Assembly: GCA_024742285.1 (NCBI GenBank) | Contig: JANSYR010000013.1 | Location: 124,001-188,000, forward strand | Reading direction: 5' to 3' | DNA from: a bacterium | GTDB lineage: Bacteria > Myxococcota_A > UBA9160 > UBA4427 | DNA: 64,000 bases | Part shown: in pieces, positions 6,690 through 53,289 of the stretch | How positions within the stretch are numbered: the first letter of the stretch is position 1 | Layout of the letters: every line of letters starts with the position of its first letter | The notes under the pieces: model-generated | Seen by the model: only the letters and a program-made list of their open reading frames with translations | Told to the model about the DNA's origin: nothing | Database searches by the model: none | Program-made: the position numbers and the translations under genes

Positions 6690-6743
6690 CCGTGGATCCG
6701 GCGCCGCGATTCCACCGCGGACGCGCGCCGAGACGAACGCGGC

Positions 6744-7913
6744 TCAGCCGCTCAGCACGCGCGTGGTGACCCCGACGACCCGCTCGATCGACTCGACCGG
6801 GAGTTCGGGATAGAGCGGTAGTGCGAGGACTTCGTTCGCGGCGCGTTCGGTCTCGACGAGCGGCGACGTGGGGGCGAATTCCGCGAGCGCCGGCTGCTCG
6901 TGGAGCCCGCGCGCGTAGTAGACCTCGGTCGCGATCCCTTCCTCGGCGAGGGCGGCGACGAGCTCGGCCCGGCGGGCTGCCTCCACGCGAATCACGTAGC
7001 GATGGTAGGTGTGGCGGCCGGGCTCGAGGAGCGGCGCGGGGGTCTGGAGGGGAAGGGGGCCTTCGCCCATCGGCACGCTCGCCGGGGTCGCGCCCCGCTC
7101 GGCGAAGAGGGCGTCGTAGTGGAGGGCGCGCTGTCTCCGCGCGCGGGTCCAGCGTACGAGGTGGCGCAGCTTGATCGACAGGGCGACCGCCTGGAGTGCG
7201 TCCATGCGCGAATTGAGACCGAGCGAGGTGTAGACCCCGGGCTCGGTCTCCCCGTGGACCCGGAGCGACGCGACCCGCCCGGCGAGCGAAGCATCGTTCG
7301 TCACGAGCGCGCCTGCGTCACCTAGGGCGCCGAGGTTCTTCGTCGGATAGAAGCTGAAGCAGGCGAGGCTCGCGCGCGCACCCACCGGGCGCCCGTCGGG
7401 GTCCACGGCGCCGATCGACTGGGCGGCATCTTCGATGATCGGCACGTCGTGCTGGAGGCACCAGTCCTCTAGCGGGCCCAGGTGGGCGATCCGACCGAAG
7501 AGATCGACGGTCAGCACCGCCCGTACGTTCGGCAACGCTTCGGCACGTCGGATCGCATCCTCGGGATCGAGGTTCAGCGTGACGGGGTCGATGTCCGTGA
7601 AGACGGGCGTGGCGCCCGCGCGAACCACCGCGGCCGCCGTCGCGAAGAACGAGAAGGCGGGACAGAGCACGGCGTCGCCCGGGCCGATCCCGAGCGCCTT
7701 CATGGCCAGCCAGAGCGCGTCGGTCCCTGAGTTGCAGGAGAGGGCGTGGCGGATCTCGCAGAGCTTCGCGAGCTCGGTCTCGAAGGCCGTGACCGGCTCG
7801 CCCAGGATGAAGCGCCCCGAGGCCATCACCTCGGCGAAGCCCTGCAGCAGCTCCTCCTCGATCTCCGCGTGCTGAGCGGCGAGGTCGATCATCGGGATGG
7901 CGGTTCGCATCAC
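6744..7913 (-). CDS. DegT/DnrJ/EryC1/StrS sugar aminotransferase
   Basis: 389 aa, PLP-dependent aminotransferase acting on NDP-4-keto or NDP-3-keto sugars. The sequence shows the family landmarks: MIDLAAQ at the N-terminus, SNSGTDAL-like (CNSGTDAL), EDAAQSIGA with the PLP-contacting aspartate, the lysine-bearing FSFYPTKNLGALGD, and the N-S-R-M-D-A-LQA segment. The start codon overlaps the stop of the GT4 gene upstream (4 nt), so the two are translationally coupled. The product is probably an amino sugar for the glycan whose synthesis starts with the neighbouring sugar phosphotransferase. Confidence 0.9.
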   Translation of the reverse strand: MMRTAIPMIDLAAQHAEIEEELLQGFAEVMASGRFILGEPVTAFETELAKLCEIRHALSCNSGTDALWLAMKALGIGPGDAVLCPAFSFFATAAAVVRAGATPVFTDIDPVTLNLDPEDAIRRAEALPNVRAVLTVDLFGRIAHLGPLEDWCLQHDVPIIEDAAQSIGAVDPDGRPVGARASLACFSFYPTKNLGALGDAGALVTNDASLAGRVASLRVHGETEPGVYTSLGLNSRMDALQAVALSIKLRHLVRWTRARRQRALHYDALFAERGATPASVPMGEGPLPLQTPAPLLEPGRHTYHRYVIRVEAARRAELVAALAEEGIATEVYYARGLHEQPALAEFAPTSPLVETERAANEVLALPLYPELPVESIERVVGVTTRVLSG

Positions 7914-37340: not shown

Positions 37341-37592
37341 CAGGACCCCCCCCTAATCGGGCCCTGAGGACCCGAATCCAGCGGCGAGCGTACCGCTCGA
37401 TGGGCTTATCGTCGCGATGTTGCGCATGATTGAATGGTTTTTTGCCGGTCGGTGAGGGAAAACCTGGGGGCCCCGGACCGATCCGGCCGCGCGAACGGGA
37501 CGGGGGCTTCTCGGAGTCAAGCCCCTTCGATTCCCCTCCGATAGGACCCGAATGAGCGCCACGCTGCCCGTGGCCCGAGGAGAAACGACCGG

Positions 37593-38324
37593 ATGCTGCT
37601 TCGCTCGGCTGCGAGCACCCACGTCGGCATGCGCCGTGAGGCGAACGAGGATCGGTACGCGATCGTGCCGGAGCTCGGGCTCTATCTGGTGGCGGACGGG
37701 ATGGGCGGCCACAAGGCCGGGCAGGTGGCGAGTCACCTCGCCGCAGAAGGGGCGATCCGCGCAATCGATGCGCTCCAGGGGGCTTCGGTCAGTCTCGCCG
37801 AGCGACTTCGCCACGCGGTGGCCTGCGCCAACCGGGAGATCTTCACCGCGGCTCAGGCCAAGCCCGAGCTCGGCGGGATGGGCACGACCTTCGTGGGCAT
37901 GCTCTTCGGGGGCGAGCGTCTGGCCCTCGCCCACGTGGGAGACAGCCGCGCGTACCTCCTCCGGCAGGGCCGGCTGCGCGGTCTGACCGACGACCACTCG
38001 ATCGTCGGCGAGCTGCTCCGGCGCCACGAGATCTCAGAAGAGGATGCTGCCCAACACCCCCACCGTCACGTGCTGACGCGCGCCCTGGGCGTTCGCCCGC
38101 GCACCGAGCCGGACCTCGCGGAGATGACGCCTCAGGAGGGGGACGTCTTCGTACTCTGCAGCGACGGACTGACCGGGCACATCGACGACGAAGAGATCGC
38201 CGAGCGCATCGCGAACGAGGACGACCTCGAGGCCGCGGCCGCGGGCCTCGTCGACGCCGCCAACCGCGCTGGGGGCCAGGACAACATCACCGTCCTGCTC
38301 GTCCGCTACGAAAAGGACGACTGA
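37593..38324 (+). CDS. PP2C-type Ser/Thr protein phosphatase
   Basis: 243 aa, metal-dependent phosphatase of the Stp1/PrpC group. N-terminal STHVGMRREANEDRY with the metal-binding ED, LVADGMGGHKAG, GMGTTFVGMLF, HVGDSRAYLLR, SDGLTG and NRAGGQDNITVLLV are the family motifs in order. It removes phosphates from proteins modified by Hanks-type kinases; none is encoded next door. GAGGAG about 10 nt before the ATG. Divergent from the long receiver protein, with 252 bp between them in which I found no strong promoter. Confidence 0.93.
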   Translation: MLLRSAASTHVGMRREANEDRYAIVPELGLYLVADGMGGHKAGQVASHLAAEGAIRAIDALQGASVSLAERLRHAVACANREIFTAAQAKPELGGMGTTFVGMLFGGERLALAHVGDSRAYLLRQGRLRGLTDDHSIVGELLRRHEISEEDAAQHPHRHVLTRALGVRPRTEPDLAEMTPQEGDVFVLCSDGLTGHIDDEEIAERIANEDDLEAAAAGLVDAANRAGGQDNITVLLVRYEKDD

Positions 38325-38725
38325 GCGCGCTCTCGCACGGGTGCCGATGGAGGCCGTGCTTCGTCTGGGGGCGGACGGGCACCGTGCTCAAACATCCTCG
38401 GCGCGAAGAAAGGCGTGCTCGGACGGGTTTCTCGTCGCGCCTGCGGAACTGCGCGCGGCACCCGTCCGCCCCCAGCCTGCGGGCGCTTGCGCTGGGCGCT
38501 GTGGACACGCTCCCTCGTTGGGAATCAGGGGGACGCGCCGTGCCGACTCGACCGCCTGCGATCCCCGTCGGTCGGGGTTGGGGGAGCGCGTGCGCCGCGC
38601 GCAGTTTCGCAGCGCGCGCTCGATCGCCGATCAGAGACGGGCCCCCTGCGCGCGAGACTGTTTGAGCACGGTGTGCGTGCTCCCCCAGCGTTGGCACGGC
38701 ACCCAGCGGCGGTGGGACGCGAGAA
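38325..38725. repeat. Non-coding 400-bp gap rich in long inverted repeats
   Basis: No convincing gene. Three long inverted pairs: 38365-38379 with 38461-38475 (15 bp, CTGGGGGCGGACGGG), 38380-38394 with 38659-38673 (15 bp, CACCGTGCTCAAACA), and 38442-38459 with 38594-38611 (17 of 18 bp, TGCGGAACTGCGCGCGGC). A shorter TGGGGGAGC/GCTCCCCCA pair is also present. The pairs interleave, so not all can form at once. It may be a structured RNA or decayed repeats. Confidence 0.6.
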
Positions 38726-39520
38726 TCAGCGGTCGACCATGCCCTTGAGCTTGGAGCGAAGCCGCATGACCGCCTTCGTGTGGATCTGGCACACGCGTGA
38801 CTCGGTGATGCCGAGGATCCCGCCGATCTCCTTCATGTTGAGATCTTCGTAGTAGTAGAGCGAGACCACGAGGCGCTCCTTCTCGGGGAGCGAGCCGATC
38901 GTGTCGGAGATGACGTGCTTCGTCTCCATCAGCTTGAGGGAGGCGAAGGGGTTCTCCGAGTTCACGTCCTCGATGATGTCCGCGAAGGTCCCGGCGCGCT
39001 CGCCGTCGGAGTTCGTGCCGCGGATCTCTTCCAGGTTGACGAGGCTGATGCCGCGAACCTGGTTGATCAGCGTGTGGAACTTGTCGATCTCGAGTCCGAG
39101 GGAGTCGGCCACCTCGTCTTCGCTCGCCTGGCGACCGAGTCGCTGCTCGACCTCTCCGTAGGCGCGTTCGAGCTTGCGTCCCTTCTGGCGAACCGATCGC
39201 GGCACCCAGTCGAGGGAGCGGAGCTGGTCGAGGATCGCGCCCTTGATCCGAAACTCCGCGTAGGTCTTGAACTTGCAGTTCTTCTCGTGGTCGTACTTCT
39301 CGATCGCGTCCATCAAGCCGATCACGCCGGTGTTGTGGAGATCGTCGAGGTCGATGTGCGACGGGAGCCGGACGGCGATCCGGTTCACGATGTACCGGAT
39401 GAGCGGGGTGTGCTCGAGGACGATCTCTTCTTTGAGGGGCGGCGGGATCTCGTCGAACTGCTCCCGGGCGTCGCGCATCCGAAGTTCCATTTCGCCCATC
39501 TCGACCGTCTTCTCAGTCAT
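38726..39520 (-). CDS. FliA/WhiG-type sigma factor (sigma28 group)
   Basis: 264 aa, group 3 sigma factor lacking region 1. Region 2: YIVNRIAVRLPSHIDLDDL, GVIGLMDAIEKYD, FKTYAEFRIKGAILDQLRSLDWVPRSVR, the classic FliA block. Region 3 includes RLGRQASEDEVADSLGL. Region 4: LPEKERLVVSLYYYEDLNMKEIGGILGITESRVCQIHTKAVMRLR. It would direct flagellar, motility or chemotaxis promoters, but no flagellar genes are in view. The ATG at 39520 starts the conserved protein; upstream codons are not conserved. Confidence 0.92.
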   Translation of the reverse strand: MTEKTVEMGEMELRMRDAREQFDEIPPPLKEEIVLEHTPLIRYIVNRIAVRLPSHIDLDDLHNTGVIGLMDAIEKYDHEKNCKFKTYAEFRIKGAILDQLRSLDWVPRSVRQKGRKLERAYGEVEQRLGRQASEDEVADSLGLEIDKFHTLINQVRGISLVNLEEIRGTNSDGERAGTFADIIEDVNSENPFASLKLMETKHVISDTIGSLPEKERLVVSLYYYEDLNMKEIGGILGITESRVCQIHTKAVMRLRSKLKGMVDR

Positions 39521-40144
39521 GTGCCGCCCGTTTTCTGCTGCGAGGGGGGAGTCGCAGCACCGCCCGAATCGAAACCGAGGCGGAAAATGAATTGGTGAGC
39601 CTGCGATCGTTCGCGCTCGGTCTTGCACGAGCGCTGCGATACGGACGCACCAAGAAGCACGGGACGTGCCAACGCATGCGGCTTTCTGGGGGAAAACCTC
39701 GATTTCGCAGCCACTTGCACTCGGCTGGAAAGCGCGGACGGGGAAAGCCGAGCGATCCTCGACGCTTGCCGTGGAAAGCGCATTCCGCCGGAGCGCACGT
39801 TCGTCGATCGGCTGCCTGCCAATCCGGATGGCGGCTCTCGGCGGCCGCCGGCAGAAGCGTCAAGGACCCGACGATTCGCCGTTTCTTGCATTGCAGATTG
39901 ATTCAGGGTGAAAGGGCCTTCGGGGTTCGACGAGCCCGGTGGTGCATCGACCCCCGAGGTTCGCCGGAACGTTCCGATCCACCTTTGCTCGCGTCCCACG
40001 CGAATGGATCCAATCGGATCGCAAGGCGAACCGGCCGAATCCCATGCCGATGGAGGGGCGGGGGCGTGGGAGGGGCCCGGTGTTCCGGGCTAGAGAAAGC
40101 GAAGCGGCGCGGTGCGGGACGAGGAGACCACGGCGGGAGGAGGG
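39521..40144. other. 624-bp gap without a recognisable gene
   Basis: Lies upstream of the sigma factor and downstream of the NtrC-type gene. Several open frames cross it but none shows a ribosome site or a protein family. Base composition is less GC-rich than the flanks. I found no tRNA, no convincing sigma70 or sigma54 promoter, and no terminator with a T run. Confidence 0.4.
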
Positions 40145-41593
40145 CTAGCCGCCCTCGGGCGGGACGATGCCCCGCTTCTTGATCTTCTCGATCAGCGTCG
40201 TGCGGTTGAGCCCGAGGAGTCCGGCGGCGCGGTTCTTGTTCCAGTGGGTGTGGTCGAGGGCCTGCTCGATCAGCTCGGTCTCGAAGCGTCCGACGACGGC
40301 GTTGAAGTCGACGCCGGTCGACGGCACCCGCGGCGCAAGGGTCTGGGAGATCGGTTCCGCCCGGATCTGGGCGGGGAGGTCCTCGACCTCGATGTCCCCT
40401 TCGCCGACGAGGACGGTCAGGCGCTCGGTGACGTTCTCGAGCTCGCGCACGTTGCCCGGCCAGTGGTAGTCCATCATCTGCTGCATCGCTTCGTCGGTGA
40501 TGCCCGCGACCCGGGTGCCTCGTTCGGACCGGGCCCGGTCGAGGAAATGGTGGACGAGCAGCGGCAGGTCCTCGATCCGCTCGCGCAGGGGCGGGACCTC
40601 GACCGGCAGGACGTTCAGGCGGTAGAAGAGGTCCTCCCGGAACTCGCCGGTCTCGATCATGTGCGAGAGGTCGCGATGGGTCGCCGCGATCACGCGGACG
40701 TCGACCTTCTGCGTCTTGGACGAACCGACCGGCTCGAAGGTCCGCTCCTGCAGCACGCGCAGGAGCTTGACCTGCAGGCTCGGGCTCATGTCGCCGATCT
40801 CGTCGAGGAAGATCGTGCCGCCGTGGGCGAGGGCGAAGCGCCCCTCGCGATGGTTCACGGCGTTCGTGAACGCGCCCTTCACGTGTCCGAAGAGCTCGGA
40901 CTCGAGGAGCTCTTCGGGGATCGCACCGCAGTTGACGGTGACGAGCGGTCGCTCGGCGCGACGACTGTTGAAGTGGAGCGCACGCGCCACGAGTTCCTTG
41001 CCCGTGCCGCTCTCGCCGGTGATCAGGACCGTACTCTCGGTGTCCGCGACCTTCTCGACGACCGAGAGGGTCCGGCCGAGGCTCGGGCTCTTGCCGATGA
41101 TGCTGTCGAACTTGTGGCGGGACTGGAGCTGGCGGTGGAGTGTCCGGTTCTCGCTCTTGAGGCGGCCGTGCTCGATCGCCTTGTCGACGAGCTTGCGCAC
41201 GACGTCGAGCCGTTCCTGCTCGAAGGGCTTCTCGAGGTACCAGAAGGCGCCGGCCTGCAGGGCTTCGAGGGAATTCTCGGGCGTGTTGTACCCGGTCATC
41301 ACGATGCACGGCAGGTCGGGAGCGACGTCATGGATCTGGCGCACGAGCTCGAGCCCGTTGATGCCCGGCATCTGGATGTCGCAGAGGACGAGGTCGATCC
41401 GCTCGCTGGCGACGAGGGTCAAGGCCTCTGCGGCGTCGGGGGCCGTGACCACCTGGTGGCCGACGCGCAGCAGGATGCGTTCGAGGGCACGGCGATACAG
41501 CTCCTCGTCGTCGACGACGAGGACGGTCGAAGGGGACAGGGACTGCAGGGTGGTTCTCCGCCTGGCGGAGGGGGCTGCCGAAGTGTAACGCAA
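40145..41593 (-). CDS. NtrC-family sigma54-dependent response regulator (variant GAFTNA motif)
   Basis: 482 aa. Receiver domain with phosphoacceptor D72 (LVLCDIQMPG) and K in LEKPFEQ; AAA+ domain with Walker A GESGTGKE, Walker B GGTIFLDEIGD and arginine finger region DLFYRLNVLPVEVPPLRER; C-terminal Fis-type HTH (NKNRAAGLLGLNRTTLIEKIKKRG). The sigma54-contact loop reads GAFTNA, not GAFTGA. TTG 41593 is the only start in frame before the receiver apart from a CTG 45 nt later. The kinase at 41787, transcribed divergently, is the obvious partner. Confidence 0.9.
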   Translation of the reverse strand: MRYTSAAPSARRRTTLQSLSPSTVLVVDDEELYRRALERILLRVGHQVVTAPDAAEALTLVASERIDLVLCDIQMPGINGLELVRQIHDVAPDLPCIVMTGYNTPENSLEALQAGAFWYLEKPFEQERLDVVRKLVDKAIEHGRLKSENRTLHRQLQSRHKFDSIIGKSPSLGRTLSVVEKVADTESTVLITGESGTGKELVARALHFNSRRAERPLVTVNCGAIPEELLESELFGHVKGAFTNAVNHREGRFALAHGGTIFLDEIGDMSPSLQVKLLRVLQERTFEPVGSSKTQKVDVRVIAATHRDLSHMIETGEFREDLFYRLNVLPVEVPPLRERIEDLPLLVHHFLDRARSERGTRVAGITDEAMQQMMDYHWPGNVRELENVTERLTVLVGEGDIEVEDLPAQIRAEPISQTLAPRVPSTGVDFNAVVGRFETELIEQALDHTHWNKNRAAGLLGLNRTTLIEKIKKRGIVPPEGG

Positions 41594-41786: not shown

Positions 41787-43856
41787 GTGAGCGTGATGGC
41801 GCCGACGGTCCGCGACACGGGTGCGCCCGCGCACGACGGCGTGATCAGGATCATCGTTCTCACACCCGGTGAGGATCCCCTCGGCGGCCCCGCCCCCATG
41901 TCCGTCGAGACGACGGCGGCACTCGCGCGCCTGGGCGATCCGGTGGAGCTGCTGCGCGCCCTCGATGCGGACGAGCTCGCCGAGCAGGTTCGCGATCCGT
42001 CGATCGATGGCGTGCTCTTCGACCGGCTACCGGCGACCGCCGTCGCGGAAGGCCTCGATCGGATTCCTTCCGAGGGACCGCCGGGCATCGTGGTGATCGA
42101 AGGGGACGGCGAGGCCGAGGCGCTCGAGGCCTTCCGGTCCGGCGCCTCCGACTGCGTCCACTTCGGACCGGACTACGAGAACGTGCTTCCGGTCGTGCTT
42201 CTCGAGCAGGTCCAGCGTTGGCGCGGGGATCGGCAGCGGCGCTTGTCCGAGGAGCGCATCCGTTTCCTCGAGGACCTGAACACCGGGATCGTCTCGGCGA
42301 TGCCGGCCGGTCTCGTCGTCGTCGACGGCGGCGGGCTGATCGTCTCCGAGAATCCCGAGTTCGCGCGGCGTTTTCCGTCCCGCTCGCATGGGGGCGCGGC
42401 CGAGTTCCTGGCCGCTCGCCTCCCCGCCGAGCTCGTCGAGGCGTTCGATGCGCTCGTTCGCGGCGAGTCGGCGGACGCGCCGCCGCTCCGCCTCGTCCGC
42501 GTCTCCGACGAGGACGGCACGGCCAGGGCCTACGAGATCCGGCACCGGATCCTCGACGACGCCGATCGCACGCTGCTCGTCCTTTCGGACGTGACGGAGA
42601 GCGAGTGGCTCTCGGAGCGACTCGAAGTGCTGCGCCGGGACACCCGCGACATCATCGAGAACATCAACAGCGCGCTCATCGTCGTCGATCTGGGCGGGCG
42701 GATCAGCTTCGCGAATCCGGCGGCCGAGCGGATCCTCGGTGGGCAGGACGGGGACCTCGGAGGGCGCCAGATCGAGGACTGGTTCGGACCGCCGGGCGAC
42801 GGACCGCATCCGATCGAGGCCTGCCTCCACGACGGGACCCGAAGCCGGGGCGCGGAGACGCTGCTGCGTCGCGCGGACGGGACGTGGATTCCGGTCGGGA
42901 TCTCCTGCTCGCCGCGACTCGACGGCGCCGGGCTGTCGCGCGGCGTCGTGGCTGTCTTCCAGGACCTGTCCGAGATCAAGGAACTCGAGCTCCATGTCCG
43001 GCAGACGGAGAAGATGGCGTCGATCGGTCAGCTCGCCGCCGGCGTCGCTCACGAAGTCAACAACCCGATGGGGTTCATCCACGCGAACCTGCATCAGATG
43101 TCGGAGTACCTGACGGACCTCGAGAAGTATTTCGAGGCGACCGATCGGCTCCAGCGCGCGGCGGTCGAAGGGGACCTCGAGGTGGTCCGCGCGGCGGCGG
43201 AAGACGTGCAGACGGTCGCTCGGGAGATCGACCTCGAGTTCGTTCGCTCCGACTTCGAGAAGGCGTTGATGGAGTCGGGGGAGGGCGCGGAACGCATCCG
43301 CCACATCGTGAAGGATCTTCGGGACTTCTCGCGACCAGACCTGCCCGCCCGCTCCGAGGCCGACGTGAACCAGGCGATCGATTCGACCGCGAACATCGTC
43401 TACACGATGATGAAGCACGACGTCGTGCTCGAGAAGGACTACCGCGAGCTGCCGAAGATCGAGGCCTATCCGATGCAGCTCAAGCAGGTGTTCATGAACC
43501 TGCTGGTGAACGCGCACCAGGCGATCGAGGCGCGAGCGGATCGCGGCCAGGGCGACCAGAAAGGCATCATCCGGATCGAGACGGAGGAGGTCGGAGCCGA
43601 GATCTGCATCCGGATCGCAGACACGGGCGTCGGGATTCCCGAAGACGCTCGCGCCCGGATCTTCGAGCCCTTCTTCACGACCAAGCCCGTCGGGACCGGC
43701 ACGGGACTCGGACTCTCGACCTCCTTCAATATCATCGAGCGCCACGGCGGTCGGATCACCGTGGAGAGCGAGGAAGGGGCAGGCACCGTCTTCGAGGTCT
43801 GGCTGCCGATCGCTCCGCCGGGAACCGAGCGGCGCTCTCCGGCGGACGAGGTGTGA
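41787..43856 (+). CDS. PAS-containing sensor histidine kinase with receiver-like N-terminus
   Basis: 689 aa, cytoplasmic (no membrane segment). Residues ~15-145 look like a receiver-type fold with a degenerate site (DGVLFDRLPAT). Two PAS-type domains follow (NINSALIVVDLGGRISFANPAAERI-type). The H-box is AAGVAHEVNNPMGFIHANLHQM with H at about 422, then a long DHp insertion, and a HATPase domain with N-box NLLVNAHQAIEA, DTGVGIPEDARARIFEPFFTTK and GTGLGLS. This is an NtrB-like class. GTG start; it overlaps the next receiver gene by 4 nt. Confidence 0.9.
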   Translation: MSVMAPTVRDTGAPAHDGVIRIIVLTPGEDPLGGPAPMSVETTAALARLGDPVELLRALDADELAEQVRDPSIDGVLFDRLPATAVAEGLDRIPSEGPPGIVVIEGDGEAEALEAFRSGASDCVHFGPDYENVLPVVLLEQVQRWRGDRQRRLSEERIRFLEDLNTGIVSAMPAGLVVVDGGGLIVSENPEFARRFPSRSHGGAAEFLAARLPAELVEAFDALVRGESADAPPLRLVRVSDEDGTARAYEIRHRILDDADRTLLVLSDVTESEWLSERLEVLRRDTRDIIENINSALIVVDLGGRISFANPAAERILGGQDGDLGGRQIEDWFGPPGDGPHPIEACLHDGTRSRGAETLLRRADGTWIPVGISCSPRLDGAGLSRGVVAVFQDLSEIKELELHVRQTEKMASIGQLAAGVAHEVNNPMGFIHANLHQMSEYLTDLEKYFEATDRLQRAAVEGDLEVVRAAAEDVQTVAREIDLEFVRSDFEKALMESGEGAERIRHIVKDLRDFSRPDLPARSEADVNQAIDSTANIVYTMMKHDVVLEKDYRELPKIEAYPMQLKQVFMNLLVNAHQAIEARADRGQGDQKGIIRIETEEVGAEICIRIADTGVGIPEDARARIFEPFFTTKPVGTGTGLGLSTSFNIIERHGGRITVESEEGAGTVFEVWLPIAPPGTERRSPADEV

Positions 43857-44230
43857 GCGGCGGACGTCCCATCGTGCTCCTCGTCGACGACGAGCCGGGG
43901 GTGCTCTCGGCGCTCCGGCGGACGCTCCGGCGCGAAGGCCTCGCGATCGAAACCGCCACGAACGGGACGGAGGCGCTCGACCGCGTGCGCACCGGCGCGC
44001 CGGTCGACCTCGTGATCTCCGATCACAAGATGCCCGGCCGGACCGGCGTCGAGCTGTTGACCACGATCCGTGCGGAGTCACCGGGCACGGCGCGCATCCT
44101 GCTGAGTGGCTGGACGTCGGAGATCGATCCCGCTGAGCTGCGAGCAGCGGACTGCGCGGCGGTGCTCTCGAAGCCCTGGGACGACGAGGAGCTCAAGACC
44201 GGGATCCAGGCGGCGCTCGGGCGCGACTAG
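43853..44230 (+). CDS. Single-domain response regulator
   Basis: 125 aa, a lone receiver: VDDEP at 11-15, phosphoacceptor D57 in VISDHKMPG, T/S in LLSGW, and K in LSKPWDDEEL. The SDHKMPG and KPWDDEEL pattern is typical of receivers that pair with HD-GYP or hybrid kinase systems. GTG start inside the kinase stop (GTGA overlap) implies stoichiometric expression with the kinase. No output domain, so it acts by protein contact or as a phosphate sink. Confidence 0.92.
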   Translation: MSGGRPIVLLVDDEPGVLSALRRTLRREGLAIETATNGTEALDRVRTGAPVDLVISDHKMPGRTGVELLTTIRAESPGTARILLSGWTSEIDPAELRAADCAAVLSKPWDDEELKTGIQAALGRD

Positions 44231-44236
44231 CCCGCC

Positions 44237-45544
44237 TCAGTCTTCCGGCGTGAGCCCGCGCAGGGTCTCCAGGTCGGTCGACTGCGTGTTCTTCGCACCG
44301 ACGAGCAGGATCCGGAAGCGTCGCGCCTTGCCGCGTCCGTAGTAGATGCGTCCCTTGCCCGCGAAACCGAGCTCGAAGACCTGCACGCGGTCGGGCAGGC
44401 CGCCGACCTTGCGACGGACGGCGACGTTCTCGGCTTCGTCGGCGAGGCGCTTGATCGCTTCCTCGGCCCTCAACTTCTGGGCTTCGTCGCCGAGCGCGGC
44501 GATCCCGTCGAGGGCGCGGTCGTCGATCTCGATCGTCTTGTAGAGGGTGCGGAAACGGCGCGCGATCCGCTCCGCTTCCCGCGTGCGGCCGCGTCCCGCG
44601 CCGCGCGTCACCCGCTTGAGGTTCTGCTCGAGTCGATCGATCTCGCCGTCCTTCGCCTCGAGGTCGGTCGTCGCCTCTTCGAGCAGATCCTCGAGGGCCC
44701 GGACCTCCTGGGCGAGGCCGACCGCGCTCTCCGCTTCGGTGCGAAGTGCCTCTTCGCGCTCGGCGAGGGAGGCCAGCCGATCGCGCAGGGACGCGCGCTC
44801 CCGCTCGAGTGCCTCGATCTCTTCGCCGTGCTCCCGCTCGAGCGGCTCGACCTGGCCCAGGCGGGCGCGGGTCTCACGAAGCTCGGCCTCGATCTCGGCG
44901 GCGCGCCCGGCGGCGGCGTTCCGATCCGAGAGAGCGAGGCCCAGGCGTTCGCGTTCGCGTCCGGTGACCCGGTGGTTCGCGACGTAGACGACGACGATCA
45001 GGATCGTCGAGTAGAGGATCAGGACGAGGTTCGAGGCCAGGGCGTTGTGGGGCAGCGTCACGCTCACCCGCGCCGTCGCGGGGAGGAACTCCATCCATTC
45101 GCTCGCGGAACCGGTGCCCGGAAGGGTCGGAGTGAGGGCCTCGCGGCCGTAGCCGCCGACGTAGAGCCAGGTCTCCCCGTCCTGAGCGAGGACCAGCGTC
45201 GTTACGTCGAGGCCGCCGAGCCAGACCCAGGCGGACGCGTCGACCGCGGCATGGATCCCCTCGGCGAGCTGCGCCTCGAGGGGGCGGGTATGCGAGAGCA
45301 GCGCGACGGACCGGTCGACGCGGTTCTGGAAAGCGGTCTCGAGGAACGCCTCGGCGATCCAGACCGTGATCAGGTACGCGAAGAGCAGGGCGAAGAGGCC
45401 GACGTAGAACGCATAGAAGGCGCCGAATCGATCGTGCACGCCGTCGACGGCCGGGTCGCGGACCCGATCGGTCGCCGCGAGTCCGCTGCGCGAGGCGGCG
45501 TCGTTCGCTTCTTCCCGGGGATCGGTTCGCGGCATCGCGCGCAT
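44237..45544 (-). CDS. Membrane-anchored coiled-coil protein with C-terminal RelE/HigB-like domain
   Basis: 435 aa. TM1 about 44-66; an extracytoplasmic region of about 100 residues; TM2 about 170-190; a cytoplasmic coiled coil about 200-312; then residues 340-431 with the order and spacing of RelE/ParE/HigB toxins: a helical hairpin (LDGIAALGDEAQKLRAEEAI), a VFELG strand, GKGRIYYGRG, FRILLVGAKNTQSTD. No antitoxin gene is adjacent. It could be a membrane sensor controlling an RNase-like domain or a domestic protein-binding use of the fold. A second ATG at 45535 is possible. It is convergent with the receiver gene, 6 bp apart. Confidence 0.7.
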   Translation of the reverse strand: MRAMPRTDPREEANDAASRSGLAATDRVRDPAVDGVHDRFGAFYAFYVGLFALLFAYLITVWIAEAFLETAFQNRVDRSVALLSHTRPLEAQLAEGIHAAVDASAWVWLGGLDVTTLVLAQDGETWLYVGGYGREALTPTLPGTGSASEWMEFLPATARVSVTLPHNALASNLVLILYSTILIVVVYVANHRVTGRERERLGLALSDRNAAAGRAAEIEAELRETRARLGQVEPLEREHGEEIEALERERASLRDRLASLAEREEALRTEAESAVGLAQEVRALEDLLEEATTDLEAKDGEIDRLEQNLKRVTRGAGRGRTREAERIARRFRTLYKTIEIDDRALDGIAALGDEAQKLRAEEAIKRLADEAENVAVRRKVGGLPDRVQVFELGFAGKGRIYYGRGKARRFRILLVGAKNTQSTDLETLRGLTPED

Positions 45545-45613: not shown

Positions 45614-46414
45614 ATGCGCGTCGTCGACCTCGACCGAGACATGAGTGACGTCATCCCGACCGGGATGTCGCCCGACAGTGAATTCCTCTTCGATCGCATG
45701 ACCGAAGCCACGCTCTACGCGACCTGTGCGGATCCGGGGCGGCTCGTGCTCGACGTCGCGAGTGGCGTGGGCCAGGACTCCGTCGCACTCGCGAAGGACG
45801 GCGCGACGGTGATCGGCGCGGAGCCGTCCGCTCGCATGACGGAGATGGCGAAGCTCTTCAGCGCCGAGAGAGTCGCTCCGGACGAGGTCGGTCCGGAGTG
45901 GGTGAGCGGCTGGGCGGACGCGCTCCCCTTCGCGGCGGACGCCTTCGATGCCTCGTTCTGCAAGGGCGCCCTGGACCACTTCGACGACCCGGAATCGGCG
46001 ATCGCCGAGATGGCGCGAGTGACGAAGCGCGACGGACGCGTCGTCCTCGCGATCGCGAATTTCGATTCGCTGGCGTGCCGCGTGACGCGCGCGATCGATG
46101 CGTTTCGCGAAGACTGGCTCGGCTGGCCGCCGCTCCGCGGACGGCGCGGCTACGACACGCCGAGCGATCACTTCACCCGCTACGAGCTCGCGCTGATGAA
46201 GGAGCAGGCCTCGCGACACGTCGACATCGAGACGGCCCTCGGTGTCTCGATCGGCTGGGGACTGCCCGGTTGGGCGACCCTCGTCTGTCACCTGCCGCGC
46301 CCGTTGGCCTTCGCGCTCCTGCGCGGTCTGGATGCGCTCGCGCGGCACTTTCCGACCCTGGCGGACGTCGTCGTGATCGTGGGCCGGCCGAGACCCTCGC
46401 GGCGGGCGGCCTAG
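45614..46414 (+). CDS. SAM-dependent methyltransferase (class I, UbiE-like)
   Basis: 266 aa. Motif I LVLDVASGVGQDSVAL, motif II VIGAEPSARM, and SGWADALPFAADAFDASFCKGALDHFDDP with the post-II acidic signature typify Methyltransf_11 enzymes. After VTKRDGRVVLAIANFDSL the C-terminal part is hydrophobic (WGLPGWATLVCHLPRPLAFALL), suggesting a membrane-bound or lipid substrate. The stop is the same CTAG that ends the convergent glycosyltransferase gene. Confidence 0.85.
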   Translation: MRVVDLDRDMSDVIPTGMSPDSEFLFDRMTEATLYATCADPGRLVLDVASGVGQDSVALAKDGATVIGAEPSARMTEMAKLFSAERVAPDEVGPEWVSGWADALPFAADAFDASFCKGALDHFDDPESAIAEMARVTKRDGRVVLAIANFDSLACRVTRAIDAFREDWLGWPPLRGRRGYDTPSDHFTRYELALMKEQASRHVDIETALGVSIGWGLPGWATLVCHLPRPLAFALLRGLDALARHFPTLADVVVIVGRPRPSRRAA

Positions 46415-47700
46415 CGGCGTCCGGCGCGGTTGCGATCGACGACTTCCTGGTAGACGTCGGCGGTCGCCGCGGCCACGCGAGGCCAGGACAGGGACTCGAG
46501 AACCCGCTCGCGGCCGCGCTTGGCCATCATCGCGCGCGCCTCGGTGTTCTCGAGCAGGGTGCGGACCCCGCGTGCAATCGAATCGGGATCGTCCCGCTCG
46601 GCCAGGACTCCACCCTCGGTCAGCTGCATGACTTCCGTCAGCGCGCCCGCGCGCGTCGCGACGACCGGGGTCCCGCAGGCCATCGCCTCCACCGCGGGAA
46701 GTCCGAATCCCTCGTACCGCGACGGCACGACCACGACCGCAGCCTCCCGGTAGAGCCGCACGAGCTCGTCGGACTCGACCCGGCCGGTGAGTCGAAGTCG
46801 ATCGAGTACGCCGACCTCCTGCGCCCACGCGCGGACCTGATTGTCCGGGCTGTCGTCGTCGACCAACGTGAGCGTGACGTGCTCCGGGAGCTTCGCGAGG
46901 GACCGGATCAGGGTTCGGATGCCCTTGTTCGGATCCGTCGAGCGGCCGACCGTCAGGAGGTTCGCATCACGCTTCGCGACCGTCGGATCCGGCGAGAAGA
47001 GCTCGACGTCGAGTCCGTTGCGCACGTTGCGGAGACGCTCCGGGCGCACGCCGAAGTCCTGGACGATCTGGCGACCGCTCACCTCGGAGGACGTGAAGAC
47101 GGTATCGAGCCGGCGCGCGACGAAGGCCTGCATGCCGATCGGGTAGAACTTCATGGTCCCGACGGCGTCCTTGAACGTCTCGTCCCGCACGAACGACGCC
47201 CGTCGGTCGACGGTCAGCGGGTGGTGCACGGTCGTCACGACCGGCAGCCCCATCGCCTTGAGGCCGAGCAGTCCGTAGCCGAGACACTGGACGTCGTGGA
47301 CGATGTCGAACTGCCGACCCGCTCGGAGGAGGTCGGCCATCCGGCGGAAGACCCGCACGCTGAAGGCGAAGGGCTCGGGAAGGAAGCCGATTCGACTGGC
47401 GGCGAGCTCGTAGAAGTCGAGCGGTCGCAGGATCTGGAGCGGGTCCTTCTCCGGCACGATCTGGTCGAACTGCTCGAGGACCCACTTCGCCCAGAACTGC
47501 TGGTTGGGGAAGCGCTCGACGGTGGCCCACGGCATGTCATCGGGATAGGGCGGGCCGACGAGGACGTGGACGTCGTGTCCCATCCGCGCCATCTCGCGGG
47601 CGAGGAACCAGAGGTAGATCCCCTGGCCGCCGGAGTTCATGTTGCCGCGGTAGGCGACGAACGCGATCCGGAGCTTGCGGTCGCTCGCTCCCCGGGCCAT
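46411..47700 (-). CDS. GT4 glycosyltransferase (RGNMxSGGQGIY type), paralogue A
   Basis: 429 aa, GT-B fold. N-terminal VAYRGNMNSGGQGIYLWFLA; then HVLVGPPYP, FDIVHDVQCLGYGLLGLKAM, VVTTVHHPLTVDRR; C-terminal nucleotide-sugar site with LLTVGRSTDPNKGI and SRYEGFGLPAVEAMACGTPVVAT (the E-x7-E motif). It shares its whole layout with the gene at 48441-49733, and they bracket a methyltransferase, so the cluster arose by duplication. Start ATG at 47700, 10 nt after the methyltransferase stop. Acceptor unknown. Confidence 0.88.
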   Translation of the reverse strand: MARGASDRKLRIAFVAYRGNMNSGGQGIYLWFLAREMARMGHDVHVLVGPPYPDDMPWATVERFPNQQFWAKWVLEQFDQIVPEKDPLQILRPLDFYELAASRIGFLPEPFAFSVRVFRRMADLLRAGRQFDIVHDVQCLGYGLLGLKAMGLPVVTTVHHPLTVDRRASFVRDETFKDAVGTMKFYPIGMQAFVARRLDTVFTSSEVSGRQIVQDFGVRPERLRNVRNGLDVELFSPDPTVAKRDANLLTVGRSTDPNKGIRTLIRSLAKLPEHVTLTLVDDDSPDNQVRAWAQEVGVLDRLRLTGRVESDELVRLYREAAVVVVPSRYEGFGLPAVEAMACGTPVVATRAGALTEVMQLTEGGVLAERDDPDSIARGVRTLLENTEARAMMAKRGRERVLESLSWPRVAAATADVYQEVVDRNRAGRR

Positions 47701-47710
47701 CGGAGCAGCC

Positions 47711-48472
47711 CTAGGCCGCGGCCGAGAGCGCGTCGCTCCCGGTCGATTCGTGCCCGGCGGCGACCGTCCCGTCCGCGCGCTTGTCACCGTAGAGGATGAT
47801 GCTCTTCGGACATACGAAGTTGAGCGCGCGCTCGAGCCTGGCCATCAGCGGCGAGCCCGTCGCCCGGATCAGGAACTCGCGATAGGCACGAACGAGGGCG
47901 CTGTCGTCCGCATCGGGGAGGTGCATCACGCTTCGCAGCACCCAGTAGGGGGTGTGGAAGCCGTGGGCGAAGCCACACCCGACGGTGTCGAAGCCGGCGG
48001 CGGCCATTCCTTCCGCGAGGTCGCGGGGCCGGAAGATCCGGATGTGGCCGCCCGGGCTCTCGAAATACTCGTCGCCCAGCCGCAGATAGAGGTGCTCGCT
48101 GGTCGCGGTCGGAATCGTGATCGCCACCTTCGCGCCGGGCTTCGCCACGCGGTAGAGCTCGCGGATCGCGGCGCGGTAGTCGTGGACGTGCTCCATGACC
48201 TCGCTGCAGATGATCCGGTCGAAGGAGGCGTCGGCGAAGGGCAGGTGGAACGCGTCGCCCTGGAGCATCGCGCCCATCCGGCCGTGCTCCTCGCCGCGCT
48301 GCCGCAGGTTCTTCGAGGCCTCGCGCATCGCGTCGAGATCGAGGTCGAGGCCGACCACCGTCGCGCCGCGATAGAGCGAGCCGAAGCAGTGGCGGCCTTC
48401 GCCGCAGCCCGCGTCGAGCAGCCGGTGCCCCGGCTGGATGTCAAGCCGCTCGAGATCGACGGTCAGCAGCAT
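47711..48472 (-). CDS. SAM-dependent methyltransferase between two glycosyltransferases
   Basis: 253 aa. Motif I LLDAGCGEGRHCFGSL, motif II VVGLDLDLDAM, then GDAFHLPFADASFDRIICSEVMEHV and VAKPGAKVAITIPT mark a class I Methyltransf_11 enzyme. The start overlaps the end of paralogue B by 32 nt and the stop is 10 nt before paralogue A, so all three are one transcript. It probably methylates a sugar or lipid made by the two glycosyltransferases. Confidence 0.88.
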   Translation of the reverse strand: MLLTVDLERLDIQPGHRLLDAGCGEGRHCFGSLYRGATVVGLDLDLDAMREASKNLRQRGEEHGRMGAMLQGDAFHLPFADASFDRIICSEVMEHVHDYRAAIRELYRVAKPGAKVAITIPTATSEHLYLRLGDEYFESPGGHIRIFRPRDLAEGMAAAGFDTVGCGFAHGFHTPYWVLRSVMHLPDADDSALVRAYREFLIRATGSPLMARLERALNFVCPKSIILYGDKRADGTVAAGHESTGSDALSAAA

Positions 48473-49733
48473 GGCTCGCCCCTCGTCTGGCTCCGCTTCG
48501 CGAAGCGTGGATCACCTCCTCGAAGACGCCGACCATCTCGGCGGCGGCCTGGTCCCACTGGAAGAGCTTCTCGACGCGCGCACGGGCGGCCCGGCCCATG
48601 CGTTCGGTCTCGTCGGGGTCGCGAAGGATCTGCCACATCGCGTCGGCCATCGCGGGCGCGTCGCGCTGGGGCACGAGGCGACCGGCATGGCCGTCGGTCC
48701 CGACGACCTCCGGAAGCGCGCCGGCGGCGTTCGCGATCACGGACAGGCCACACGCCATCGCCTCGCTGGCCGGGAAGCCGAAGCCCTCGAAGAAGGACGG
48801 GACGAGGGCGACCTTCGCCGTCGAGTACTGCTCGACGAGCTCGGGCACGGTCAGCATCCGGTCGATGATCTGGATGCGGTCCTTCAGCCCGTACTGCTTC
48901 GTGAGTCGCGGGACGAGGCCGTGGGACGGGATCCGACCGTCGACGATCTTGAGCGTCACGTGCTCGGGCAGCATCGAGAGCGCCTCGAACATCGTGCCGA
49001 TGCCCTTCTTTCGGTCCTCGGTCCGGCCCACGAAGAGCAGGTCCGCCTCCTTGGGCTTGTCGATCGGGTGGAAGATGTCCGTGTCGGTTCCGTTGTAGAC
49101 GACCGAGACGTTCTTCTGCGAGATCTTGAAGTACTTCTCGATGGCTTCGCGGGAAGCCTGCGAGACCGTGACGATCTTCGAGAGTCGCGGGGCGACGAAT
49201 TGCTGCATCGTCAGCGGGAAGTAGAGGGTTCGTTCGACCCGCTTGCGGAGAGAGGGGTCGATCGTGAAGTCGGCTTCGCGGTCGATGTGGAGCGGGTGGT
49301 GGATGACCGAGACGACCGGGACGCCCATCGCCTGGATCCCGAGCAGGCCCCAGGACAGGCACTGGTTGTCGAAGACGACGTCGAAGCGATAGCGCTTCTG
49401 GATCTCCCGCCAGCGCCGCATCAGGCGGAAGCCGAAGGTCTGCATCTCGGGGAAGACGCCGAAGCGCGACACGCCGAGCTCCCAGAGCGAGAGCGGCTTG
49501 AGGAGCGAGAAGGGCCGCTCGGGGTCGAAGGCCTCTTCCGTCGTGTTCCCGAAGACATTGTCGTTCGGGATCTCGTGGAGCGGAATGCCTTCCTCGAGAT
49601 CCGGGAAGGGCGGGCCGGCGAAGACGTGGACGTCGTGGCCGGCGCGCTTCCACTCGCGCGCGAGGTAGGCCGCGTAGATGCCCTGGCCGCCGCAGAACAT
49701 GTTGCCGCGGTAGGTGAGGAGAGCGATGCGCAT
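48441..49733 (-). CDS. GT4 glycosyltransferase (RGNMxCGGQGIY type), paralogue B
   Basis: 430 aa, GT-B fold. N-terminal LLTYRGNMFCGGQGIYAAYLA; VFAGPPFPDLEEG; FDNQCLSWGLLGIQAMG; VIHHPLHIDREADF; C-terminal VGRTEDRKKGIGTM and SFFEGFGFPASEAMACGLSVIAN. It carries a longer, basic C-terminal tail (SRSGARRGASHAADRR) that overlaps the methyltransferase start and may not be conserved. First of the three glycan-tailoring genes and 24 bp after the small membrane protein gene. Confidence 0.88.
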   Translation of the reverse strand: MRIALLTYRGNMFCGGQGIYAAYLAREWKRAGHDVHVFAGPPFPDLEEGIPLHEIPNDNVFGNTTEEAFDPERPFSLLKPLSLWELGVSRFGVFPEMQTFGFRLMRRWREIQKRYRFDVVFDNQCLSWGLLGIQAMGVPVVSVIHHPLHIDREADFTIDPSLRKRVERTLYFPLTMQQFVAPRLSKIVTVSQASREAIEKYFKISQKNVSVVYNGTDTDIFHPIDKPKEADLLFVGRTEDRKKGIGTMFEALSMLPEHVTLKIVDGRIPSHGLVPRLTKQYGLKDRIQIIDRMLTVPELVEQYSTAKVALVPSFFEGFGFPASEAMACGLSVIANAAGALPEVVGTDGHAGRLVPQRDAPAMADAMWQILRDPDETERMGRAARARVEKLFQWDQAAAEMVGVFEEVIHASRSGARRGASHAADRRSRAA

Positions 49734-50345: not shown

Positions 50346-51497
50346 ATGCGAGTCGTGGGATTGATGTCGGGGACCTCGGCGGACGGGATCGATGCCGCGG
50401 TGGTCGACTGGCCCGACGACGGACGGGCGACGCCCTTCGAGCTGGTTGCCTACCGGGAGACGCCCCATCCCGCCGATCTCCAGCAGGCGATCCACCGATT
50501 GGCCGCCCTGGAGCTACCCGCCGGGGAGGTCCTCGCCGAGCAGCTTCGGCTCGATGCGATCCTGGGCGACGCCTTTTCGGAGGCGACGCGGGCGCTGCTC
50601 GCGGAGGCGGGGCTCGATCTCGCGTCCGTCGACGCGATCGCATCCCATGGCCAGACGATTGCCCACCACCCCGAGCACGGCGGCACGCTCCAGATCGGCT
50701 GCCCCGATCGGATCGCCGATCGGCTCGAGCGCCCGGTGGTCGCCGACTTCCGCCGCCGGGACATGGCGAACGGCGGGGAGGGCGCACCGCTCGCGCCGTT
50801 CTTCCATCACGCGGTCTTCAGCGACCCGAGCGAGCCGCGCGGCGTGCTGAATCTCGGGGGGATCGCGAACCTCACCTGGCTTCCCGCCGGCGGCGCGCCC
50901 GACGACGTGATCGCCTACGACGTCGGACCCGCCAACGCCCTGGTCGATGGGGTGATCGCCCTCGCGACCGACGGCGCGGAGCGCTTCGACCGAGACGGTG
51001 CCCGGGCGTCCGCCGGTCGCGTCCGTCGGGACTGGCTCGACGAGATGCGGGCGGATCCCTATCTCCATCGCTCGCCCCCCAAGTCGACGGGTCGGGAGCA
51101 CTACGGGGCGGCGGAGGCGGCGGGCTGGTGGGCGCGGGCCCGGCGCGAAGACGTCCCACTCGAGGACGTGCTCGCGACGCTGGTCGCCGGGAGCGTCGAG
51201 CCGATCGCCAACGCCTGGCGGGACCACGCCGGGGACGGCGCGGGCGGGCGGCTGCTCGTCGGCGGCGGCGGCGCACGCAACGCCTTCGTGATGGCCGAGC
51301 TCGCCCGGTTGCTTCCGGGGGTGGCCGTCGAGTCGATGGACGCGATGGGCGTTCCGTCGGATGCCGCGGAGGCGATGGCGTTCTCATTGATGGGCCGCAA
51401 CGCGCTGCTCGGGATTCCGAACCAGCTGGCGCGGGTGACCGGTGTCGACCGGGCGCGGGTGCTCGGTGTGATCCACGGACGCGAGTGGCTGCGTTAG
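50346..51497 (+). CDS. anmK: Anhydro-N-acetylmuramic acid kinase
   Basis: 383 aa. Opens and phosphorylates 1,6-anhydro-MurNAc released by lytic transglycosylases, giving MurNAc-6-phosphate. Diagnostic motifs: VVGLMSGTSADGIDAAVVDW at the N-terminus, SHGQTIAHHPEHGGTLQIG, ADFRRRDMANGGEGAPLAP, NLGGIANLT, YDVGPANALVDG, and VGGGGARNAFVM near the C-terminus. It stands convergent to a minus-strand operon that encodes the MurU-like and AmgK-like salvage enzymes. Confidence 0.95.
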   Translation: MRVVGLMSGTSADGIDAAVVDWPDDGRATPFELVAYRETPHPADLQQAIHRLAALELPAGEVLAEQLRLDAILGDAFSEATRALLAEAGLDLASVDAIASHGQTIAHHPEHGGTLQIGCPDRIADRLERPVVADFRRRDMANGGEGAPLAPFFHHAVFSDPSEPRGVLNLGGIANLTWLPAGGAPDDVIAYDVGPANALVDGVIALATDGAERFDRDGARASAGRVRRDWLDEMRADPYLHRSPPKSTGREHYGAAEAAGWWARARREDVPLEDVLATLVAGSVEPIANAWRDHAGDGAGGRLLVGGGGARNAFVMAELARLLPGVAVESMDAMGVPSDAAEAMAFSLMGRNALLGIPNQLARVTGVDRARVLGVIHGREWLR

Positions 51498-51506
51498 GCG
51501 AACGCC

Positions 51507-52244
51507 CTAGAGCTTGACGGCCATCCCGTCGTCCGCCGTCTCGATCTCGAGCTTGCCGCGCTCCCGCGCCATCTCTTCGCCGAGATGCGTCAGGATGAGT
51601 CGGCCGCAGTCGAGGTCGTCGCGGTGCTCCCGGATTTCGTCCAGGCTCAGGTGGAAGTCGAGCTCGGCGTGGCAGAGCGTGCACTCGCAGATGAAGAGAT
51701 CGGAGTCCGCGATGTGGCGCGGGAGCCCGTCGAACCAGCCGGTATCGCCGGAGTAGGTGATGCGCTCGCGGCCGAGCTGGACGCGGTAGCCCTGGGGGTT
51801 CGCTTCGGGCTGGTGCTGCGTCGCGAAGGCTTCGACCTCGGCAGGCCCGCAGGCGAGGCGTTCTCCGGCATGGATCTCACGGTAGTGGACGGGGAAGGTC
51901 CACTCGCGATCGCCCAGGTGGTGGCCCATGGCGTCGGCGAGGGCGTAGACGCGCTCCTGGATCTCGGGCGGGCCGACGATTTCGAGTGGGTGCTTGCGGT
52001 GGTCGGTGTAGAGCGCGGCGTAGAGGAAGGCGGGGATCCCGCCGAAATGGTCGCCGTGGAAATGGGACACGAGGATCACGTCGATCTCGTCGCGCGAGAG
52101 AGCGAGCGCGGACAGGCCGGTGTTGGTCGTGCCTCCGCAGTCGAAGAGCATGCCGCCTCGTTCGCCGCGGGCGAAGATCGCCGACTGTCGCCGACCGCCG
52201 GCGCCGAACGCGTCACTGGTTCCGATGAAAACGACTTCGCTCAC
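51507..52244 (-). CDS. Metallo-beta-lactamase-fold hydrolase (RNase Z-like)
   Basis: 245 aa. N-terminal FIGTSDAFGAGGRRQSA, the zinc motif SHFHGDHFGG, a later ITYSGDTGW and ILTHLGEEM give the RNase Z/ElaC-type layout (H-x-H-x-D-H plus distal D and H). It lacks an obvious long exosite arm for tRNA, so it may act on another phosphodiester or a lactone. GTG start overlaps the stop of the MurU-like gene (GTGA). Last gene of the spm-amgK-murU operon; its role in salvage is not evident. Confidence 0.82.
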   Translation of the reverse strand: MSEVVFIGTSDAFGAGGRRQSAIFARGERGGMLFDCGGTTNTGLSALALSRDEIDVILVSHFHGDHFGGIPAFLYAALYTDHRKHPLEIVGPPEIQERVYALADAMGHHLGDREWTFPVHYREIHAGERLACGPAEVEAFATQHQPEANPQGYRVQLGRERITYSGDTGWFDGLPRHIADSDLFICECTLCHAELDFHLSLDEIREHRDDLDCGRLILTHLGEEMARERGKLEIETADDGMAVKL

Positions 52245-53233
52245 TGGGCGCTCCCGATCGCCGTTCCGACCGTCGCTCCCGGCTCGGATCCTTCGCAGGG
52301 ATGGAACGTGCCCCCCGCATATACACCGTCCCGCCCTCGGAAGCCCGCGGGAACGCTCTCTTCGTCCCAGACGACGCATCGTTCGAGGTCCGCGTCGGCC
52401 GCGACGCGCGCCGATCGGGCGATCACGTTTCCCGACCGCTCGGATTCGTTCGAGAGCGCGCCGGACCAGGCCGACGCCCCGCCGCCCAGCCGCGGCAGAT
52501 CCGGCGGCGCCAGATTCGCGGCGAGGTACTCCGCGGGGGTCCCGACCGGCTCCCAGACGCAGTCCGCGGCCGGAACGATCAACGCCCCGAGCGTCACCGA
52601 CCCCGCCTCCACTCGCGGAATCAGCCAGTCTCGGAGATCCTCGAAGGCCGGACCGCCCGCGTCGGGCCAGCCGTCGATCGACTCGGTGCGAAAGAAGCGC
52701 ACGCTCGTGAAGAGTCCGGCGGCGACTTCGCGCCCGGCGTCCTTCGCGTCGATGCGGGTCTCGCCGATCCGGACAACCCGTCCGTCGGCGTCCACGCCGA
52801 TCGAGCCGAAGGTCCCGATTCGCGGGTCGTCTCGCAGCACGACGGTCACGTCCCAGGGCGACGCCCGGTGGCGGGCGCGCAGGGACGGGAGGTCGAGGTC
52901 GAGCAGCATGTCTCCCGCCAGGACGAGGCAGTCTTCGCTCCCGCGTAGGAAGTCGGCGGCGCGGCGGATCCCGCCGCCGGTGCCGAGGGGCTCGTCCTCG
53001 ACGGACCAGGCGAGGACGAGGCCGGCCGGGTGATCCTGATCGACGGCGCGGCGGATCGAATCGGGCCGATGATGGAGATTGATCAACACCTCGCGGATCC
53101 CGGACGCCGCGAGCAGCTCGAGGAGCAGGCTCACGACCGGGCGTCCGCGAACGGGGAGCGCCGGCTTCGCGCGGTGGTCGGTGAGTGGCGCCATGCGCGT
53201 GCCGAGACCCGCCGCGAGAATCATCGCGCGCAT
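52241..53233 (-). CDS. murU: MurU-like sugar-1-phosphate nucleotidylyltransferase
   Basis: 330 aa. N-terminal MILAAGLGTRMAPLTDHRAKPALPV matches the NTP-transferase motif GxGTRxxPLT-x7-KP. VEDEPLGTGGGI and VLAGDMLLDLD follow. Next to an AmgK-like kinase this fits MurU (MurNAc-1-phosphate uridylyltransferase). The protein is ~100 residues longer than typical MurU, with a C-terminal part (VIARSARVAADADLERCVVW) like a short hexapeptide/left-handed helix, so a GDP-mannose-type enzyme is an alternative. ATG 53233 was chosen; an in-frame GTG lies at 53251. Confidence 0.75.
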   Translation of the reverse strand: MRAMILAAGLGTRMAPLTDHRAKPALPVRGRPVVSLLLELLAASGIREVLINLHHRPDSIRRAVDQDHPAGLVLAWSVEDEPLGTGGGIRRAADFLRGSEDCLVLAGDMLLDLDLPSLRARHRASPWDVTVVLRDDPRIGTFGSIGVDADGRVVRIGETRIDAKDAGREVAAGLFTSVRFFRTESIDGWPDAGGPAFEDLRDWLIPRVEAGSVTLGALIVPAADCVWEPVGTPAEYLAANLAPPDLPRLGGGASAWSGALSNESERSGNVIARSARVAADADLERCVVWDEESVPAGFRGRDGVYAGGTFHPCEGSEPGATVGTAIGSAQ

Positions 53234-53289
53234 TTCCGCCCCGTCCGGCACTCGTTCCCCCTCCTGGTCCCACGGGTCATCGGCCCGTC

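Follow-up and report, generated by a model that had tools for sequence, protein, structure and literature searches.

A predicted inner-membrane sensor is joined through a long coiled coil to a C-terminal domain of the RelE/ParE fold in a single protein encoded within the 64,000-nucleotide stretch of Myxococcota DNA analysed here (the window), and the gene stands without an antitoxin. RelE-type toxins normally stop protein synthesis, and RelE domains usually belong to toxin-antitoxin modules. We propose, with the balance of probability lying about even, that this protein is a one-component, antitoxin-free inner-membrane receptor whose RelE output is directed at the ribosome or at mRNA. The architecture and the RelE-type fold, as modelled, are well supported. 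The gene and its parts, with residue numbers following the 435-amino-acid form (start at 45544), are as follows.

44237..45535, minus strand: whole gene, 432 aa counted from the conserved ATG, or 435 aa from the ATG at 45544.
44972..45424, minus strand: predicted sensor part, with TM1 (residues ~41–63), an outer domain of ~104 residues and TM2 (~168–191), from hydropathy, the charge pattern and AlphaFold2.
44579..44959, minus strand: predicted cytoplasmic coiled coil, residues 196–322, from the 3.5-residue period and conservation.
44240..44578, minus strand: predicted RelE/ParE-fold domain, residues 323–435, from AlphaFold2, Foldseek, VIA-align, TIGR02683 and PHROG matches, and column counts.

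The original prediction had placed the gene at 44237–45544, and the reading frame is indeed open on the minus strand over that interval; its start, however, is more probably the second ATG, at 45535, since the closest orthologues keep a Met and align there whilst the 45544 position is not Met-conserved, making 432 aa the likelier length. From the N-terminus the protein comprises a short tail, TM1, an outer domain of ~100 residues, TM2, a coiled coil of ~125 residues and the C-terminal RelE/ParE-fold domain.

The C-terminal domain was modelled with AlphaFold2 from an alignment of 58 orthologous domains (alignment A3), giving a model with pLDDT 88.5 and pTM 0.82, a succession of elements H-E-H-H-E-E-E-H and, within it, the BECR fold (beta-alpha-alpha-beta-beta-beta plus a C-terminal helix). 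The best Foldseek match in the PDB was T. thermophilus RelE (2khe; probability 1.00, TM 0.57/0.70), though with an E value of 5e-3, and the leading matches were mostly RelE, HigB, YafQ, YoeB and ParE. With VIA-align, 50 of 50 among the matches listed were RelE/ParE family members or chains containing such a domain; the best had Z 9.1 (rmsd 2.7, 83 aligned), and as a Z of 8–9 is by itself moderate, it is the uniformity of this list that carries more weight. The predicted fold thus matches RelE and agrees with the earlier assignment of the domain to the RelE/ParE/HigB type.

Family profiles pointed the same way at lower scores. TIGR02683 (HI1419-type RelE/ParE) matched 26 of 29 orthologues, with a best E value of 4.7e-5 that lies under the curated cut-off (16.7 bits for the window protein against 62.85), Gp49 matched weakly, as did Pfam ParE_toxin (6/29 members), and none of these three curated families gave a match above cut-off for the C-terminal domain. 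A PHROG family annotated ‘toxin’ matched 46 of the 58 domains (best 1.7e-4), and an independent whole-genome search with TIGR02683, made without reference to this gene, also picked up three of these proteins. In a profile-profile comparison the domain matched seven real HI1419-type toxins of related genomes at E 7.1e-5 and probability 63, with 34% identity over 76 columns and the motifs in register. PADLOC returned weak matches only across the domain set (Csx1, 2/58; HEC-07, 1/58). Sequence searches of the PDB with the domain and its profile gave chance matches only, and the RelE assignment therefore rests on the fold together with the family HMMs.

The two membrane helices first read from the window sequence around an outer domain of ~100 residues were borne out by hydropathy and charge. 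The window protein has hydrophobic segments at residues 45–63 and 168–186, exactly two such segments occur in 55 of 61 sequences, and the mean number of Lys and Arg is 2.4 before TM1, 0.07 before TM2 and 3.7 after TM2, a charge pattern which predicts that both ends of the protein face the cytoplasm, with the ~104-residue loop outside. In the AlphaFold2 model of the sensor (residues 34–215; pLDDT 85.2, pTM 0.73) the outer domain appears as a small mixed alpha/beta sheet. Structure searches with this model gave no significant match to any known ligand-binding fold; on comparison with Cache/PAS domains, PctC, KinD, Tlp3 and CdgS9 scored Z 4.6–6.0, tied with unrelated rows. The coiled coil proposed earlier between TM2 and the C-terminal domain also held up, since residues 195–318 have a hydrophobic period of 3.5 residues, as expected of a coiled coil from sequence (power 2.16, against 0.15 +/- 0.15 and a maximum of 0.98 in 2000 shuffles), and Pro234 within it is invariant in a 29-row alignment. 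At ~0.15 nm per residue such a coil could span up to about 19 nm between the membrane and the C-terminal domain.

The genes on either side are as follows.

43850..44230, plus strand: single-domain response regulator (Pfam Response_reg, 2.4e-24), convergent with the gene, stop codons 6 bp apart.
41787..43856, plus strand: PAS histidine kinase, a syntenic neighbour given for context.
45614..46414, plus strand: SAM methyltransferase, divergent neighbour, ~80 bp intergenic.
46411..49733, minus strand: GT4 glycosyltransferase, methyltransferase and GT4 glycosyltransferase, neighbours given for context.

The block of regulator and kinase lies directly downstream in 51 of the 54 loci long enough to show it; upstream, 37 of 44 have GT4 glycosyltransferases, both counts using gene calls from a simple GC-based selection. 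The locus holds no adjacent antitoxin or free toxin, nor space for one between gaps of 6 bp and ~80 bp, and most orthologous loci share this layout; the host genome as a whole gave no match to TIGR02683, Gp49 or ParE_toxin at E ≤ 0.001, in keeping with the original statement that neither gene is present. Searches of the locus found no Rfam family and no promoter or terminator consensus. Further along the window, beyond the kinase (35544–41593), lie genes for an NtrC-type regulator, a sigma-70-family factor (regions 2–4), a PP2C phosphatase and a long-tailed response regulator, which occur in many relatives, and the same syntenic block holds an AnmK-like kinase and a nucleotidyltransferase (50346–53251), possibly for cell-wall sugar recycling. 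Two orthologous copies (loci L085 and L091) share another context, with mechanosensitive-channel-like, WS/DGAT-like and TetR-like regulator genes upstream and a MATE-like transporter gene downstream (named by eye in L091).

Of 97 relatives searched with the whole protein, 67 carry the gene, and all 67 belong to a set of 79 genomes from one uncultured Myxococcota order; the genomes searched from other classes of the phylum, and from another family of the same class, gave no orthologue. Among 282 genomes across the phylum the domain profile picked out 44, likewise in this order only, and a scan of 84,980 species genomes yielded 60 loci, most of them labelled as Myxococcota or Deltaproteobacteria assembled from metagenomes, with UBA9160 and UBA4427 among the labels, so that the order is probably UBA9160 of GTDB. 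The orthologues retain the domain and share the fused architecture, the RelE-fold domain being part of a longer protein at all 60 loci, four of which have only a partial N-terminal part owing to a contig end or broken frame. In two orthologues (L076 and L077) the open reading frame begins well past the expected N-terminus in a frame-shift-like manner, reflecting sequencing error or decay. Mean column identity was 73% in the RelE domain against 50% in the sensor part, and in the close pairs with usable dS, among 11 pairs, dN was well below dS in all three parts of the protein; judged from these sequences, conservation is highest in the RelE domain, which is under purifying selection.

The gene is dispensable and self-contained and needs no local partner, because it is missing from two congeners (G001 and G002) in which the flanking block is whole. 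Most genes of that block are about 69–90% identical, the small regulator is 58–65% identical, the gap between methyltransferase and regulator is under ~90 bp, and whole-protein search found no copy elsewhere in either genome. As the order-wide layout includes the gene, we take these absences as losses. In G055 a diverged regulator adjoins the methyltransferase, and there too the gene is missing; in three small genomes (G039, G050 and G072) neither the gene nor the kinase and regulator follow the methyltransferase; five further order members without a match (G004, G008, G021, G042 and G043) lay outside this comparison of context, the contig end being near or the site unread. In G031 the gene's usual slot between methyltransferase and regulator seems to hold a PilZ-like reading frame (L139, ~6584–7327, minus strand; RRRFPRAP...DLSPGGIG by motif). 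An obligatory partnership with the kinase and regulator was also considered, and has synteny in its favour, but was rejected because G001 and G002 keep both without the gene.

Whether the domain is likely to be catalytic can be judged against HigB-TAC, in which toxicity is inhibited when Ala replaces K58, R68, R77, K95 or K99, the effect of N73A is strong and those of E66A and Q98A are partial or mild; possible RelE counterparts of R68, R77 and K95 are K54, R61 and R81 (PMC9098466). By motif alignment, E391, Gly393, R399, K418 and Q421 of the window protein are equivalent to E66, R68, R77, K95 and Q98 of HigB-TAC. The catalytic residues fared unevenly: E391, R399, K418 and Q421, the putative active site, are invariant in 58/58 domains, whereas position 393, equivalent to HigB-TAC R68 and RelE K54, is Gly in 54 of 58 (Ala in three, Ser in one), and this makes catalysis uncertain. 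The K99 position is Lys in 36/58 and Ser in the window copy, and the beta2-beta3 loop, which bears N73 in HigB-TAC, is shortened in this family. The invariant residues of the RelE-fold domain are R330, L334, Y335, R377, R378, K379, E391, K397, R399, Y401, K418 and Q421, of which R377, R378, K379 and K397 are additional basic residues that bring extra positive charge; K397, which lies in the shortened turn between beta2 and beta3, might stand in for HigB R68. Position 427 is Tyr in 56/58 and Thr in the window copy. On sequence grounds the putative active site is strongly constrained yet is not that of a textbook RelE. The earlier suggestion that envelope signals may control an RNase-like or ribosome-binding domain is weakened by the near-invariant glycine and supported by the invariance of the other putative active-site residues. 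The shortened beta2-beta3 loop and the Thr at 427 in the window copy also tell against the receptor reading, as do the family scores under cut-off and the absence of a significant fold match for the sensor.

The same glycine, standing where a catalytic Arg or Lys is expected, also fits a different account, in which the RelE-fold domain is non-catalytic and serves as a binding module on a membrane-anchored coil, for example tethering ribosomes or mRNA to the membrane or binding a protein such as the neighbouring response regulator. The length of the coiled coil, the conservation over the whole domain and the close linkage of a response regulator and kinase in nearly all loci would all suit such a module; invariance of E391, R399, K418 and Q421 would be unexpected for a plain scaffold, however, and the persistence of kinase and regulator without the gene in two congeners means that these partners are not obligatory. 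We consider this account somewhat doubtful. Inhibition of DNA gyrase on a membrane signal, as a ParE-type output, is highly improbable: ParE toxins have the same fold without the RNase residues, and ParE chains appear in the structural matches alongside the weak ParE_toxin hits, but HI1419/Gp49-type toxins account for the commonest sequence matches, and the K..Q motif that follows beta4 shows no variation. A toxin-antitoxin module with its antitoxin elsewhere or lost, and with the membrane part a chance fusion, is barely credible despite the fold, the weak toxin-family matches and the real HI1419-type toxins that a few members of the order carry (in L116 with a probable antitoxin), given that the fusion is conserved order-wide with stable synteny, no antitoxin is adjacent, the congeners lack this gene alone and cleanly, and searches of phages, plasmids and viral contigs gave no match that would indicate a phage or mobile-element origin. 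The free-standing HI1419-type toxins themselves (L112–L118, L123 and L124) occur in a few genomes of the order and class, and the L116 toxin gene is overlapped at its end by the probable antitoxin gene, of 122 aa.

The HI1419-type (TIGR02683) and Gp49-type HigB toxins (PF05973; HigB-TAC and S. pneumoniae HigB) have the same fold as the domain described here, their F-E-L, G-x-R-x-Y and K-x-x-Q motifs are in register with it, and their K-R-V-G resembles the R377/R378/K379-V-G-G segment of this family. They are, however, free-standing proteins of ~90–140 aa with an antitoxin, whereas the present protein, at 432 aa, includes a membrane receptor and a coil, and the position of Gly393 in this family is Arg in theirs. 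The nearest relatives are Cami1 and ToxM, neither of which shares this architecture. In Cami1, a CARF-RelE effector of type III CRISPR systems, a CARF sensor takes the place of antitoxin control over RelE (PMC11229360), and an N-terminal sensor, a C-terminal RelE and the lack of an antitoxin are common to both proteins; Cami1 was also among the structural matches, as the apo form (8phb) and the ribosome complex (8phj), at Z 8.1 (rmsd 3.2/3.8, 93/97 aligned). Cami1 is nevertheless soluble, CRISPR-associated and equipped with a CARF domain for cA4, whilst here there is a membrane-spanning sensor with an outer domain and a long coil; Pfam and NCBIfam scans of the whole protein found no CARF match, and the loci read contained no CRISPR neighbours but instead glycosyltransferases, methyltransferases and a two-component system. 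ToxM/ToxR, transmembrane BECR toxins described in 2025 by Gerdes (PMC11980606), are likewise inner-membrane proteins bearing a BECR/RelE-fold domain, with RelE on the cytoplasmic side. In ToxM, however, RelE is N-terminal, followed by a central TM and a C-terminal outer domain, the reverse of the order found here, where there are two TM helices and a coil, and ToxM is co-transcribed with an RHH/HTH antitoxin (toxR, upstream), whereas the present loci have neither toxR nor an antitoxin. The ToxM study excluded many multidomain proteins for which no antitoxin could be identified (PMC11980606), and we found no account of the present architecture in the open-licence literature. A RelE output on an antitoxin-free sensor (Cami1) and membrane-anchored BECR toxins (ToxM), neither of them named in the original prediction, are thus already known, and what is added here is a membrane receptor without an antitoxin.

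In the antitoxin-free receptor that we favour, the small outer domain between the two TM helices would sense something in the envelope or periplasm, and the signal would pass via TM2 and the long, probably dimeric coiled coil to the cytoplasmic RelE-fold domain, which would act on the translating ribosome or its mRNA, either by cleaving mRNA in the A site or by binding the site and slowing translation. Receptor and coil would together replace the antitoxin as the means of control, as the CARF sensor does in Cami1. We infer dimerisation, signalling, the ribosome or mRNA target and activity. The more specific version, that the receptor passes an envelope signal straight to the ribosome through a catalytically active RelE, with no antitoxin, second messenger or transcription factor, and has been widely kept in this form in one order, we think unlikely. 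The invariant residues make the reading testable in ordinary laboratory strains and, if true, it would represent either a distinct coupling of envelope to translation by a widely kept antitoxin-free fusion or the domestication of a toxin.
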